Assembly: GCF_016107545.1 (NCBI RefSeq)
Contig: NZ_JABASS010000001.1
Location: 124,001 to 188,000 of the forward strand
Direction: 5' to 3'
Source: Psychrobacter namhaensis
GTDB taxonomy: Bacteria > Pseudomonadota > Gammaproteobacteria > Pseudomonadales > Moraxellaceae
DNA length: 64,000 nucleotides
This document shows positions 23,878 through 51,400 of this stretch, in pieces. Both the position numbers and the translations under genes were made by a program. The notes below the pieces were generated by a model. That model searched no databases, was not told the origin of the DNA, and worked only from the letters and a program-made list of their open reading frames with translations. Numbering within the stretch: position 1 is the stretch's first letter; each line of letters starts with the position of its first letter.

Positions 23878-23972
23878 ATTAGGGGCTGTATAGAAATCAA
23901 ATCAGCGGCAACCAAATAAAAACACAAGCCAGTATGATCGCAGCCCGTAACTGTTTTTAAGCTTATCATAAC
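23878..23972. mobile_element. IS5-family end relic, copy A
   Basis: About 95 bp, about 87% identical by eye to the left part of the relic at 26585-26680 and in the same orientation (shared start ATTAGGGGC-GTATAGA, shared end AAGCTTATCATAAC). It corresponds to the terminal inverted repeat plus the last transposase codons of an IS5-type element. It is truncated by the 23970-24164 inverted-repeat element. With copy B it forms direct repeats around the hexosylglycerate genes. Confidence 0.7.
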
Positions 23973-24164
23973 CTGAATTCGGGATAAGCCAGTGCTTAAG
24001 TTGTTGATACTATTTGCATAATTATTATCTGATCTTATAAAGTCATGCTGTTGACAGTAGTTTATAGAGAAGCCTGCCTTCAAAGACTTAGCTGGTCTTC
24101 AAGAGTAATAGAAAATATCAATACGATCAGCAGCTTAATGAATCACTTATCCCGAACTGGGGTT
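23970..24164. mobile_element. Small inverted-repeat element (MITE-like or IS remnant)
   Basis: Terminal inverted repeats of 19 bp, 16 identical: AACCTGAATTCGGGATAAG at 23970-23988 and the reverse complement of AACCCCAGTTCGGGATAAG at 24146-24164. The roughly 155 bp inside has no intact gene; a 36-codon open stretch on the minus strand may be transposase debris. The ends recall IS982-type termini, but I cannot confirm that. It abuts copy A on one side and lies 7 bp past the stop of the glycosyltransferase on the other. Confidence 0.55.
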
Positions 24165-24171
24165 ATAACTG

Positions 24172-25383
24172 TCATTTTGACTCCTCCTTTACCATCGCTC
24201 TAAATCTATCGGAGAATTCAGGTAAAACGGAACGCACTGTAATCCACGGAGAGAGGGATGCCACACCCATTGGATCCTCACAAAACTCAGCTGCAGCTTC
24301 TTTGATAGCCTCTTCAAAAGCTTCGACTGCCCTTATCTCATTTTGGCGGTTGTACGCAAGGGCATTTATCTTACTGAGTGCATTGTACTTTGAAATCTCA
24401 ATACGCGACTGCTGGTAGTATGAAGCAAGGAGTGTTTTATAAGAGGCTTCTGAAAAAACCACTCCCTCTTGAGCTAAAATTCTAAAAAGAGTTTTGGCTA
24501 TATCGTTTGCCATCTTGTAAATGCCACCACCTTCACTTTTTGAGCCTAAGTCTTGATGTTTATGCTCATAACTCTCCATGATTTCTGTTTGACAGATACG
24601 ACGGCTTGAGGTGTTGTTATAAACTTCTGAGAGTGTTGAAACCTCAAGCCCCCAAGTAGGAGAAATCGCAATACCACGACCAAGAGAGCGGATAAACGCG
24701 AACTCTCCAGAGAGGGCATAACGAAAACTCTGCATATACTCCAAGTAGTGGTTTGAGCCAAAAGTAATCTTGAGGGCTTTTATGAGTGGTGTATAAAAAA
24801 GACGGGTCACACGACCGTGGAGCTTGTTTGTAACGCGAGAGTAATAGCCTTTGTTAAACTCAAAATCAAGACCTGGGTGTACTATGGGGTAAAAAAGCCG
24901 TGCAACAAGCGCTTTTGAGTAGTTTACTATGTCACAATCATGCAGGGCAAAAGCATAGTTATCTTGATCTGTGAGACCATAACCTATCATCGTCCAAACA
25001 TTACGACCTTTTCCTGGAATGTCTAAACCAGGAAAACCCTCATCTGTAAGCTCTTTATATATCTTTTGTACGTTTGGACCATCATTCCAAAGTACCTCAA
25101 CACTACACTCCAAAATGCTCATACGCTTCTTTACTTCTAAAAACTGCTCCTCAGTTGCACCGTCGAGTCCAAGTATAATTTTATAGAGATACTTCACGTT
25201 TTTAAGCTCATCAATAATAGTCTGCATCGCTGGCGTTTCAAACTCTGAGTAGAGAGCGGGAAGCAAAAGCACCATATTTCTGCGTTTTGAAAACTGCAAT
25301 AATTCTTCTTCTATGCTTTCTAAGGAGCGATTTCCCACATTTTGTAGTGTTGTTATAACGCCGTTTTGAAAAAAATCTGACAT
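24172..25383 (-). CDS. Hexosyl-3-phosphoglycerate synthase, probably glucosyl (GpgS-like)
   Basis: A 403-residue GT-A fold glycosyltransferase that would join an NDP-hexose to 3-phosphoglycerate, the first step of glucosylglycerate (or mannosylglycerate) synthesis. The opening MSDFFQNGVITTLQNVG, then LLLPALYSEFETPAM and the metal-binding FALHDCDI region, match the GpgS-type (GT81) enzymes known from Persephonella and Campylobacterota. It follows a strong GGGAG ribosome site. The partner phosphatase is upstream. Codon choice (many ATA, AAA and CTC codons) looks unlike the neighbours, and IS relics flank the pair, so transfer is likely. Glucose over mannose is a family-based guess. Confidence 0.8.
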   Translation of the reverse strand: MSDFFQNGVITTLQNVGNRSLESIEEELLQFSKRRNMVLLLPALYSEFETPAMQTIIDELKNVKYLYKIILGLDGATEEQFLEVKKRMSILECSVEVLWNDGPNVQKIYKELTDEGFPGLDIPGKGRNVWTMIGYGLTDQDNYAFALHDCDIVNYSKALVARLFYPIVHPGLDFEFNKGYYSRVTNKLHGRVTRLFYTPLIKALKITFGSNHYLEYMQSFRYALSGEFAFIRSLGRGIAISPTWGLEVSTLSEVYNNTSSRRICQTEIMESYEHKHQDLGSKSEGGGIYKMANDIAKTLFRILAQEGVVFSEASYKTLLASYYQQSRIEISKYNALSKINALAYNRQNEIRAVEAFEEAIKEAAAEFCEDPMGVASLSPWITVRSVLPEFSDRFRAMVKEESK

Positions 25384-25513
25384 CTTATTCTCCCTTTAGA
25401 TGTTATCTCATACGGTTACCTTTTATTATTATCGTTACATCTATCCTATTTGTGCCCCTACAGTCTTATGTTTAGGGGATTACCATATTTCTTGCTACCT
25501 ACACTTAAAATAT

Positions 25514-25609
25514 TTACTTTAAGCTAGCAGTATTTTGAGATGAATCTTTTAACAAAGACGCCTTAAGTGCATCGGCAAATATTTCTCTTGCAAGCGCTTT
25601 AGAGTCCAT
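25514..25609 (-). pseudogene. Truncated gene start, possibly glycerate 2-kinase
   Basis: A 31-codon frame begins with an ATG that overlaps the end of the phosphatase gene (GATGGACTCTAA) and reads MDSKALAREIFADALKASL before ending in unrelated residues and TAA. The opening resembles the N-terminus of MOFRL/DUF4147-type glycerate kinases (a short start followed by an IF-x-A-A-L helix). Such a kinase makes sense beside glucosylglycerate genes. The rest of the gene is absent: the next 130 bp lead to the glycosyltransferase. I read it as a deletion remnant, with modest confidence. Confidence 0.4.
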
Positions 25610-26402
25610 CAAATATCTCCAGTATAGAGCTATTCCAACCTTTTGGACCTGGGTAGTCTGCTCTTTTTATATCTGCGTTTCCTATGGCACTAAAAGAGCC
25701 ATCATAGAGGGGAACTAAAACACCAATATCTGCTTTTTTTATCATAGTAAAGTCATTTGCACTATCACCAAGGGCTATCTTGGTGCACTTTTGGTTGTAA
25801 TACTCTTCATACATGTGAGCAAGTGTAAGCATGGCATTTGCTTTGTCTTGTAGGAGTGAGACAAGGTGAAAAAATCTTCCCCCTTTTACTATATCAAAGC
25901 CCTTTTCATTGGCCTCTTTTTTAAGAGCCTCAAGCTCTCTTTTGTCTTGCATCAAAAAAGGCTCACTAAAGTCGCGTTTCATGGCATTTAGGCTCTCTTC
26001 TCTTGGCAAACCTGTATGCTGTATTACTTCATCAACACTCATATCTCCAAAACCTTTTATAGAGTAGCTCCGTTTCATTTGTGTGAAAAAAAGTCTCAGT
26101 TCTATGTAGGAGTGCGCCTTAGAGAATTTTATCCACTCCTCTTTAAACGCCACCTCTTTTGCAAGTACACACTCTGAGGGCACAAATATCCCAGCACCAT
26201 TCTCAACGATAAAAGGCTGCCGCATGCCTAACTCTTTTTGAAGCACTACCACTTCACTAAAGGTTTTGCTCGTTGCGATAATGAGAGGAATTGAGCGATA
26301 TTTTAAAAGTGCTAAGGCCTCTTTTGCAGGAGCGAAACTATAATCCTGGTGATTGAGTAGTGTTCCATCTAAATCGGTAAATACAAGATATCTCTTCTTC
26401 AT
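25599..26402 (-). CDS. Hexosyl-3-phosphoglycerate phosphatase (HAD-IIB, MPGP-like)
   Basis: A HAD-superfamily phosphatase of about 267 residues that would remove the phosphate from glucosyl- or mannosyl-3-phosphoglycerate to give the free solute. HAD motif I is VFTDLDGTLLN near the N-terminus, motif II lies in PLIIATSKTF, and motif IV is KIALGDSANDFTMI. The C2-type cap between motifs fits the MPGP group. I prefer the ATG at 26402 (MKKRYLVFTDLDG); a GTG at 26420 is in frame. Codon choice matches the glycosyltransferase downstream rather than the flanking genes. The two lie 215 bp apart with a kinase-like remnant between them. Confidence 0.82.
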   Translation of the reverse strand: MKKRYLVFTDLDGTLLNHQDYSFAPAKEALALLKYRSIPLIIATSKTFSEVVVLQKELGMRQPFIVENGAGIFVPSECVLAKEVAFKEEWIKFSKAHSYIELRLFFTQMKRSYSIKGFGDMSVDEVIQHTGLPREESLNAMKRDFSEPFLMQDKRELEALKKEANEKGFDIVKGGRFFHLVSLLQDKANAMLTLAHMYEEYYNQKCTKIALGDSANDFTMIKKADIGVLVPLYDGSFSAIGNADIKRADYPGPKGWNSSILEIFDGL

Positions 26403-26420
26403 AGCAGTATGATACAACAC

Positions 26421-26584
26421 AATTATTTGTCATGGTCGACTTATTTCAGACCACTTCTTAGAGGTTTTTATTGAAATAAACGCAGTCAAAAATGCCATGG
26501 GATCTCTCATGACATCCAGCACTTTAGAGCAACCCTTTGAGCAATTACTTTGTGGACTAATAACTTGGGTTTATTACAACTTAG
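26421..26584. other. Region between IS relic B and the phosphatase gene
   Basis: A plus-strand frame is open from 26413 to a TAG at 26587, ending inside the IS relic. It has no start codon near its beginning and reads, in part, MGSLMTSSTLEQPFEQLLCG. It could be the stub of a gene broken by the insertions or chance; I do not recognise it. The phosphatase promoter should also lie here. Confidence 0.3.
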
Positions 26585-26801
26585 ATTAGGGGCGGTATAG
26601 AATTCAAATCAAAGGCAATCAAATAAAAACACAAGTTAGTATGATCGCAGCCCCGTAACTGTCTTTAAGCTTATCATAACGAGTGGCGATGCCTATAAGG
26701 TGTTCAACCTAGCAAAAGCATTTTCTACCAGATGGCGGCAGCGATATAAATACCAATCCAAGGTATCGTTATTGCTTAGTGAATTCTATACCGTCCCTAA
26801 T
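26585..26801 (-). mobile_element. IS5-family relic, copy B, with transposase pseudogene
   Basis: A 217-bp remnant bounded by inverted repeats: ATTAGGGGCGGTATAGAATT at 26585-26604 and the reverse complement of ATTAGGGACGGTATAGAATT at 26782-26801. Inside, the minus strand encodes the end of an IS5-type transposase: YRCRHLVENAFARL, then after an in-frame stop GIATRYDKLKDSYGAAIIL. The N-terminal two thirds of the transposase are missing, so the copy is dead. Its left 96 bp are repeated at 23878-23972. Confidence 0.75.
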
Positions 26802-34710: not shown

Positions 34711-35490
34711 TTAGTTACTAAGAATTCTGCTTTTTATTGGACCTCTAGATTTATTTATATTTTGTGCCAGTCTATTTAAATTGTTAGTAGGGGGCGCATA
34801 CACCTGAGAGAGAATGTATTCAATCAGTTCGTAAGCATCCATAGTATTATTTGGAGTTAATTCCTCACCTGAATGACTCCCAGCGTTACCCAACCATTTC
34901 ACAGCCTCAAGATGCTCTTTTATAGTTTGATATTTATCTGGTAGATGGTCCTCGATCCTACTATGTAAAGATATTTTTTTACTTCCATCTTTTTTAGAAT
35001 ACAGATTTACACCTTGATCTGTAAGAATACCTTCAATAGCTATTCTTACTAAATTAGCTGCTGCAGAAGGAGAAGTAAAAAACAATTCAAATGACTGGTT
35101 GAGGATTTTTTTGATATCAGTAGGCGTATCTTCTGGGATAATAATTAAATTGAGATTGGGATGAAAAAATAACGGTCGATAATAATCATCCCACTCTTGA
35201 TATTGTTGTCCATAATCATCAACATCTATATCGAAACCCACACTTCCATGTCCTGTACATAGTACCTTGCCTTCACATCTATCGTTATTACATTCAAAGA
35301 CACAGTTAAAAATATACTCAATCCACTCTGGTTCAAAATCGGGATGTTTCTGCATCTCATCTAAGTCACAGGTTGTATATTCTTTAAAACTATCTTTCTG
35401 AATACGTAGAAGTCCAATATTACACTTAGGACAATTATAATCAGGTGAGTTGTCTAAGGTAAATTTCTGCTTATATAGAGTTCTATTCAT
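34711..35490 (-). CDS. DUF4145 protein with N-terminal zinc-ribbon-like cysteines
   Basis: A 259-residue protein. The N-terminal part has CPKC at about residues 20-23 with further cysteines (TCDLDE, FNCVFECNNDRC) that may bind zinc. The C-terminal half carries SAAANLVRIAIEGILTDQG and GNAGSHSGEELTPNN, the DUF4145 signature, a helical domain also found in restriction-associated proteins. The predicted ribosome site AGGAG is unusually close to the ATG. The gene is AT-rich compared with prpF, 22 bp upstream, and with the ABC gene downstream, which suggests a later insertion. A defence role is only a guess. Confidence 0.7.
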   Translation of the reverse strand: MNRTLYKQKFTLDNSPDYNCPKCNIGLLRIQKDSFKEYTTCDLDEMQKHPDFEPEWIEYIFNCVFECNNDRCEGKVLCTGHGSVGFDIDVDDYGQQYQEWDDYYRPLFFHPNLNLIIIPEDTPTDIKKILNQSFELFFTSPSAAANLVRIAIEGILTDQGVNLYSKKDGSKKISLHSRIEDHLPDKYQTIKEHLEAVKWLGNAGSHSGEELTPNNTMDAYELIEYILSQVYAPPTNNLNRLAQNINKSRGPIKSRILSN

Positions 35491-50428: not shown

Positions 50429-51400
50429 ATGAAACCAATAATCATTGATGCTGCAACAATATATGATCCTGCTAGACTCTTGGCTGTATTAGCTTCCGTT
50501 GATATACGATATTCAGAGATTTGGGTTTCGCAGCGTTATGATCATTTTAAAGAGAAGGATTTTTTAACTGGATGGGGAACTGAAGATCGAATTGGAATTC
50601 TTCCGGCTCGTGACGGTAGCTATAAGGCGAAACCTTTATCTATTCCATCGATTGATGAAAAATTAAACCCTACTCATTGTGATACTGGACCCAAAATACT
50701 GCGATGGGCACTAGACAAAGGAATGGTTGTCCCAAAAGACCTGTTTAAGTTCGAAGAACTAGCTATCGAATTAGAAAAAGAGAATCGTATAAATCATTTA
50801 TCAGAAGCCATCATGTTAGGTGCCCCATATGCTTATGACACAAGAGCTGGTAAAGAGTGGACAAAAAGTTATCTAGAAAAAACAGGTCAAAAAGTTTTAG
50901 GTCCTGAATTTGCTTGGCGATTAGAGCCTTACGGTATTGGTCATGGTCTTGGCCTAATTTTGGCTGCATCCAAAGAGTATTCCGCAGAACCATTTTTCAG
51001 CCACCCATTTTTTCAAGATGGTAATTCAACGCATAACTACACATATTACAAACGTGACCAAATAATTGGTACGTTTTCAGATTCACATTTAAGCCAGGAT
51101 AAGCAAGATATTGATTTAGGTAGTTCGATAATTGAAGCTAAGAATCTTTTAAAAAGCCCTGAAACAATCTCACTTGCTGAGGTAGCATTTTATTTGAATC
51201 AAAAAGAGCGTATTGATTCTATCACTGGAATTATTACCGCATCAAAAATTATTGAAAGCCGAGGAAAAGATATTGGTATTATTGCAAGCAAGTATGCTGG
51301 TACTGTAGCTGCTGATACAATACTATTCGGAGGTGTTCCTGTAACAACTTCTATGGTATCGCTATATGATATCGGCACTAGGTTCTTTAAATCCAAATAA
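50429..51400 (+). CDS. Hypothetical protein in accessory region
   Basis: I do not recognise this 323-residue soluble protein. It begins MKPIIIDAATIYDPARLLAV and has no signal peptide or membrane helix. Features are an aromatic/charged block SEIWVSQRYDHFKEKDFLTGW, a central EFAWRLEPYGIGHGLGLILA and a C-terminal part rich in Ile and Gly (ITGIITASKIIESRGKDIGI). Its AT-rich codon use differs from that of the dehydrogenase downstream. No clear ribosome site precedes the ATG. It is the last gene of the integrase-associated stretch and ends before a strong terminator, so it is a candidate cargo gene. Confidence 0.6.
   Translation: MKPIIIDAATIYDPARLLAVLASVDIRYSEIWVSQRYDHFKEKDFLTGWGTEDRIGILPARDGSYKAKPLSIPSIDEKLNPTHCDTGPKILRWALDKGMVVPKDLFKFEELAIELEKENRINHLSEAIMLGAPYAYDTRAGKEWTKSYLEKTGQKVLGPEFAWRLEPYGIGHGLGLILAASKEYSAEPFFSHPFFQDGNSTHNYTYYKRDQIIGTFSDSHLSQDKQDIDLGSSIIEAKNLLKSPETISLAEVAFYLNQKERIDSITGIITASKIIESRGKDIGIIASKYAGTVAADTILFGGVPVTTSMVSLYDIGTRFFKSK

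Follow-up and report, generated by a model that had tools for sequence, protein, structure and literature searches.

The 64,000-nt window that we analyzed (Psychrobacter namhaensis contig NZ_JABASS010000001.1, positions 124,001 to 188,000) carries two adjacent genes, gpgS and gpgP, that encode a glycosyltransferase of the glucosyl-3-phosphoglycerate synthase type and a HAD-IIB phosphatase. The pair has a GTPase gene on one side and a fatty-acid-hydroxylase gene on the other and is enclosed by two same-orientation relics of one IS5-type insertion sequence (IS), with a repeat resembling a miniature inverted-repeat transposable element (MITE) next to gpgS and the scar of a glycerate kinase gene (gk) between the two genes (Table 1).

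Table 1. Features of the gpgS-gpgP locus in window coordinates; IS positions refer to an 868-base stretch with the full IS of Psychrobacter cryohalolentis K5 plasmid 1.
Feature	Coordinates	Strand	Basis or remark
Whole inserted unit	23882..26797	.	2916 bp; after its removal with one TA, an interval of the length seen in relative G122 remains
Left target-site TA	23880..23881	.	Compare full-length IS copies, 7 of 10 with TA at each side
Right target-site TA	26798..26799	.	Same basis as left TA
Left relic, solo end (outer terminal repeat and ~91 bp of the IS5-type element)	23882..23972	+	23878-23972 = IS 1-96, 90.6%
MITE-like palindromic repeat, joined to left relic and abutting gpgS stop	23968..24171	.	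Inverted-repeat pair; free-standing 95.6% copy in P. faecalis
gpgS, glucosyl-3-phosphoglycerate synthase-type glycosyltransferase, 403 aa	24172..25383	-	Profile matches, tree, residue alignment
gk scar (donor gk start, overlapping gpgP stop, and last ~14 codons; interior deleted)	25384..25609	-	tblastn with the kinase of Campylobacterales operon L050
gpgP, HAD-IIB phosphatase, 267 aa from ATG	25599..26402	-	In-frame GTG at 26420
Right relic, internally deleted IS copy (209 bp, both terminal repeats)	26589..26797	+	26585-26777 = IS 1-194; 26776-26801 = IS 841-866

As a candidate GT81-type enzyme, GpgS matched the glucosyl-3-phosphoglycerate synthase model NF040724 over its full length (323.8 bits, 1.4e-96) and also matched PRK13915 (50.5 bits, 1.6e-13). 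Its residues K125, D149-C150-D151, and E247 align with K114, D134-S135-D136, and E232 of Mycobacterium tuberculosis GpgS, a correspondence that was counted by hand on a profile alignment with a weak overall match (29 bits to 3e25), and these residues are invariant in 16 GpgS sequences. The Lys, Asp-X-Asp, and Glu network of the mycobacterial enzyme is described in the available text of PMC2581804. A single-sequence search with GpgS gave no match to a solved structure. GpgP scored 216.7 bits against TIGR01486, the subfamily model for mannosyl-3-phosphoglycerate phosphatase (MPGP), above its cut-off of 164.75, and aligned with the solved MPGP 3ztw over residues 12-242, including the DLDGTLL and GDSxND motifs. 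A glycosyltransferase-phosphatase pair with a codon choice unlike that of its neighbors had been proposed from the letters of the window (hereafter the original prediction), and both points were borne out: among the 43 window open reading frames (ORFs) of at least 150 aa, gpgP and gpgS deviate most in codon use, while their G+C fraction at third codon positions (GC3; 0.36-0.38) is not in itself extreme (mean 0.46, SD 0.07 for the other 41 ORFs). Two other window ORFs, at 34711-35490 (DUF4145) and 50429-51400 (no Pfam match), have a GC3 of 0.24 and are possible other imports.

The two relics form a direct repeat in which 23878-23946 matches 26585-26653 at 90% over 69 nt, followed by 97% over 29 nt; taken as one inexact repeat of about 96 nt, the identity is 91% over 96. 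The longest exact repeat within 20-30 kb is 17 nt, compared with a maximum of 16 and a mean of 12.9 in 100 first-order Markov shuffles, a control that is weak alone, and the case rests on the inexact repeat. Full-length copies of the same IS are present in other Psychrobacter; ten of them measure 858-862 bp, run from GGG to CCC, and are flanked by TA on both sides in seven cases and on one side in the remaining three, the P. faecalis and K5 cassette copies among them. The transposase pieces of the P. faecalis copy match PF13340 (IS4/5 family) and PF01609, so that the full-length relatives combine an IS4/5-type DDE transposase, a length of ~0.86 kb, and inverted terminal repeats, and the TA at both ends recurs around the window unit. 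Neither window relic contains a transposase gene. The original prediction of two IS5-family ends flanking the pair in the same orientation is therefore correct for the direct repeat and for its origin in one IS, but only the left copy is a lone end; the right one has both terminal repeats and an internal deletion. Searching the window genome (G000; 2,900,373 bases in 45 contigs) with a 217-bp relic query returned the two relics only (all 21 candidates scored), and a full-IS query found the same two places in three pieces (best 4 of 25 candidates); across the genus set of 105 genomes, IS matches of some extent, many of them weak, occur in 56. The MITE-like repeat (~200 bp) has a single match in G000 and a free-standing copy with 21-bp perfect ends in P. 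faecalis (L033 1505-1705). A TATAAT-type duplication at this repeat was judged by eye. We also tried the repeat as an IS982 derivative, but the IS982 region of K5 gave no match and the name was dropped.

The borders of the inserted unit coincide with the outer ends of the two IS copies, with a TA outside each. When the unit is removed together with one TA, 15 bases remain between the conserved flank matches, and the corresponding interval of relative G122 is likewise 15 bases, the count being the same and the sequence diverged. The GTPase and hydroxylase genes are adjacent, with no cassette, in all seven relatives that were read at the site (G122, G116, G143, G015, G010, G063, and G028). These relatives were selected because both flanks matched and are not a random sample; the spacing of their flank matches is 15 to 482 bases, and an exact count was possible only in G122. 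The left border is an IS terminus with differing outside sequence in the window, in P. vallis, and in the K5 plasmid, and in K5, as in the window, the two-ended unit has a TA outside each end. Thus more than one site, namely the window locus and the K5 plasmid with their different surroundings, has a unit delimited by the outer ends of two copies of the same IS. The transposon-borne or IS-recombined layout that had been envisaged gains strength from the exact-length empty site in G122, the TA on both sides, and the left border recurring in two other species.

A GpgS match was found in 7 of the 105 genus genomes, the same seven having a GpgP match at E <1e-30, and 98 genomes were without any GpgS match. 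The near-identical pair is present in six (G000, G013, G016, G057, G146, and G142); the five further carriers are P. vallis, P. faecalis, P. cryohalolentis K5 plasmid 1, an uncultured Psychrobacter, and a Psychrobacter metagenome-assembled genome (MAG). Conservation of the pair between the same genes throughout the genus, which the original prediction had named as the outcome that would speak against it, was not what we found: apart from these six genomes there is one distant pair, the cassette sits in other surroundings in all five other carriers, and four of these five have an empty orthologous site, since in G013, G016, G057, and G146 the matches to the GTPase gene and those to the conserved gene that follows are separated by 244-288 bases. 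The cassette DNA is 95-97% identical to that of the window, whereas for the GTPase gene the identity is 82% in G013, 79% in G016, and 77% in G057. The distant gpgS-gpgP pair (44% and 36%) is on a 4-kb contig (G068:C46:1913-3984) and may be another import or contamination. Purifying selection has acted on gpgS and gpgP: pN/pS, the ratio of nonsynonymous to synonymous differences, is 0.13-0.46 among five Psychrobacter copies, with Fisher p <0.05 in 18 of 20 pairs, which are not independent. On plasmids, GpgS-like genes occur in 11 of 72,556 records and near-identical ones only in two P. cryohalolentis records.

Outside the genus the closest GpgS (88% identical) is that of a Campylobacterales MAG (L050). 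The GpgP of L050 is 56% identical, with L051 slightly closer by plain identity (59%), and GpgP is less conserved than GpgS throughout the compared set. In the GpgS tree (80 rows) the five Psychrobacter rows form one clade (support 100/99) with L050 as sister (100/98), inside a group of nine rows, Candidatus Sulfurimonas ponti among them; in the GpgP tree (71 rows) the Psychrobacter clade (100/99) again has L050 as sister (93/67), within the same nine-row group (99/94). The resemblance to Campylobacterota and Aquificae enzymes noted in the original prediction therefore holds for Campylobacterota, beside which both proteins fall, and the Aquificae link is more distant (60-61% identity for GpgS of two Hydrogenothermaceae MAGs). 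Descent from an ordinary gammaproteobacterial gpgS was rejected, as non-genus GpgS sequences of the same order are 41-47% identical among the matches listed, versus 88% for L050. The L050 gene order is gpgP, glycerate kinase (PF13660, PF05161), gpgS, and a GH13-type enzyme (PF00128), followed by a GalU-like nucleotidyl transferase as read by eye. Remains of this kinase gene persist between gpgP and gpgS in Psychrobacter: 24 to 42 codons from its start (E 3e-7 to 6e-4) and 14 to 17 from its end (E 0.002 to 0.03) in P. vallis, P. faecalis, G146, and K5. For the window, tblastn matched the last 14 residues only (E 0.06) and the start was read from the DNA; in G142, tblastn with the L050 kinase found no scar. 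The window also lacks extra sequence that other copies have beside the scar, with a length of 223-226 bp for the P. faecalis and G146 copies and of 80-81 bp for those of K5 and P. vallis. A search of G000 for a glycerate kinase (MOFRL, PF05161) found none, with 4 of 14 controls positive. Because both gene ends are kept between gpgP and gpgS, we conclude that gpgP-gk-gpgS arrived as one piece and that gk was then deleted, a history that the scars themselves document at the level of the DNA. The 56% versus 88% identity to L050 had raised the idea of separate donors for gpgP and gpgS, which we rejected on the basis of the same sister in both trees, the lesser conservation of GpgP throughout, and the contiguous source indicated by the scars.

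The cassette is real, IS-bounded, and laterally spread, which bears out the original prediction in outline, and we consider it likely that it represents a composite-transposon-like insertion of Campylobacterota-derived gpgP and gpgS that has spread among Psychrobacter. The outer ends of the two IS5-type copies would act as left and right members of one terminal pair, and a transposase working on that pair would have carried all 2.9 kb of it to a TA site flanked by the GTPase and fatty-acid-hydroxylase genes; we infer this movement from where the boundaries lie, from the TA repeats, and from the empty site. As the sequences show, the genes carried derive from a Campylobacterota operon of gpgP, gk, gpgS, and the GH13-type gene and have lost gk, and the cassette passed among Psychrobacter species, in one instance on a plasmid. 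That it spread among species is established by the contrast in identity between cassette and GTPase gene, and the routes we infer. With both IS copies decayed and no further copy found in the draft genome, the unit looks stranded, and the cassette in this genome probably cannot move unless it is given a transposase.

Arrival by homologous or site-specific recombination of a plasmid or island, with the IS ends hitch-hiking or supplying homology, is an unlikely alternative. The K5 cassette is on a plasmid, that of G146 neighbors a large tyrosine-recombinase gene, and that of P. vallis lies near AlpA and DUF932 genes. Against such recombination, the window insertion is exact at both IS termini, with a TA at each side and the host base count of G122, and it brought no plasmid or island gene into the window; nor did the relic search of G000 yield another IS copy to give homology. 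Several observations do weigh against transposition as the whole account. The P. faecalis and K5 cassettes have common CsbD and PAP2 neighbors and a common right-hand flank, which indicates that recombination outside the unit also contributed; the left relic with its MITE junction, found in the window, P. vallis, and K5, is absent from P. faecalis and G146; and the right IS, full length in P. faecalis and K5 and internally deleted in the window, is truncated in P. vallis, G146, and G142. One or other end of the unit is missing from three of the six carriers, and the complete two-ended unit was seen in the window and K5 only. The individual IS copies of the P. faecalis and K5 cassettes have TA on the outer side only, and TA is a 2-bp palindrome that is frequent in AT-rich DNA. 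G000 is a draft from whose assembly repeated IS copies may be absent, and the SH-aLRT value joining gpgP to L050 is just 67. Had the pair come down vertically from an ancestral Psychrobacter, been lost from most species, and been flanked later by chance IS insertions, its presence in several species of the genus would be explained, but this is hardly credible and we reject it because of the identity contrast, the empty sites (four other carriers and the seven relatives), and the nesting of the pair among Campylobacterota in both trees; the other locations in all five other carriers and the identical IS/MITE junction in the window, P. vallis, and K5 also contradict it. Two unrelated IS insertions are not favored either, because the relic search of G000 found no other copy of the IS end and three species share the left junction.

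For the enzymes, the competing proposal is that they make another hexosylglycerate, such as mannosylglycerate, or take another acceptor. The best GpgP models are named for MPGP and one related solved structure, 3f1y, is named mannosyl-3-phosphoglycerate synthase; against this, both synthase models matched by GpgS are for the glucosyl enzyme, and six of the seven distinct solved sequences that GpgS matched are GpgS or uncharacterized relatives by name or by the available text of PMC2581804. We judge another product to be improbable, a little more so than plasmid or island recombination. The glucosyl assignment and a working pathway have their own points against them, as the GpgS scores fall short of the equivalog cut-offs of NF040724 (700) and PRK13915 (262), and GpgP is below every equivalog cut-off. 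The gpgS of G146 stops four codons early, and that of G142 is split over two contigs with one TAG. Promoter-like matches showed no excess over shuffles (6 versus 7.1), and terminator-like matches were more numerous (5 versus 2.3, SD 1.4) but lie within genes or the gk scar.

Four features of the carrier loci can be added. In G142, as read by eye and without a family search, the cassette has a LysR-type gene and transporter genes around it. In G146, the cassette adjoins three consecutive genes (L159 8118-14396), for a 1143-aa phage-integrase-domain protein (PF00589) and two products without a Pfam match, which look like an island integration module. A lipoprotein-like small gene and a DUF305 gene (family assignment checked in L039 only) are near the cassette in P. 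vallis (L039 15043-16736) and G146 (L159 1603-4602), on opposite sides. On K5 plasmid 1 (L127, NC_007968), the cassette is found among CsbD, PAP2, potassium/proton antiporter, and other genes.

If the glucosyl assignment is right, GpgS would join NDP-glucose to 3-phosphoglycerate, and GpgP would remove the phosphate from the resulting glucosyl-3-phosphoglycerate to give glucosylglycerate, a compatible solute that would then accumulate; the cassette, having lost gk and the GH13 enzyme, would retain nothing but the genes for synthesis. This synthesis by the two enzymes, and a role in stress such as the salt or cold named in the original prediction, are predicted from family membership, and the cassette probably lets Psychrobacter make glucosylglycerate. 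The gk product may serve in glycerate recycling, and the donor GH13-type gene could encode a glucosylglycerate phosphorylase, a guess prompted by a title in the reference list of PMC10873239. A broader view, in which Psychrobacter repeatedly gain a synthesis-only osmolyte module for glucosylglycerate through a roaming Campylobacterota cassette, stripped of the donor's glycerate kinase by deletion and lacking its GH13-type enzyme, such that IS and plasmid rather than descent pass on stress tolerance, we hold to be evenly balanced between right and wrong. A mobile cassette explains the occurrence of the pair in six of the 105 genomes, including permafrost strain K5 by way of a plasmid, as opposed to the 98 without a GpgS match. 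It is mostly for resistance that mobile cassettes are known; here a pathway of the compatible-solute type has crossed phyla on one, with its steps legible in scars as donor operon, gk deletion, MITE junction, and IS decay. It leads to the direct prediction that carriers contain glucosylglycerate and lose it upon removal of the genes or plasmid. Glucosylglycerate is named as a compatible solute in the available text of PMC10873239, where reference titles tie it to nitrogen-poor conditions in cyanobacteria and mycobacteria. The open-licence literature yielded no report joining Psychrobacter with glucosylglycerate or glucosyl-3-phosphoglycerate synthase, and none joining glucosylglycerate with Campylobacterota, and reports elsewhere are possible. 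K5 plasmid 1 is listed as a composite replicon in PMC4224046, in whose available text the words "glycosyl" and "osmoprotect" are absent.

IS-bounded metabolic cassettes are already known as a kind, and the window cassette is a new, well-resolved example. The GpgS/GpgP pathway of Persephonella marina was reportedly worked out by Costa and colleagues in 2007, a study referenced in PMC10873239. It also appears as table entries in the available part of PMC2874817. The window pair resembles this pathway in its two steps, synthase and phosphatase, the sequences compared being those of the two Hydrogenothermaceae MAGs; it differs in belonging to a gammaproteobacterium, in being part of an IS-bounded unit, and in the deletion of a glycerate kinase that separated the genes. 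Composite transposons of IS5-type elements are an established class, in which, as here, the genes carried lie between two copies of one IS and the insertion is bordered by the outer ends of those copies with a TA repeat; the window unit departs from the class in the decay of both copies, in the fusion of the left one with a MITE-like repeat, and in carrying an osmolyte-type pathway. The L050 operon has the same gene order and sister sequences but is complete, while the Psychrobacter cassette has no more than a scar of gk and no GH13-type gene. The K5 plasmid 1 cassette is 96.0% identical over 96% of the query with the same left border, and it differs from that of the window in its still full-length right IS and its adjoining CsbD and PAP2 genes; its pair is annotated merely as a glycosyl transferase and a HAD-IIB hydrolase.

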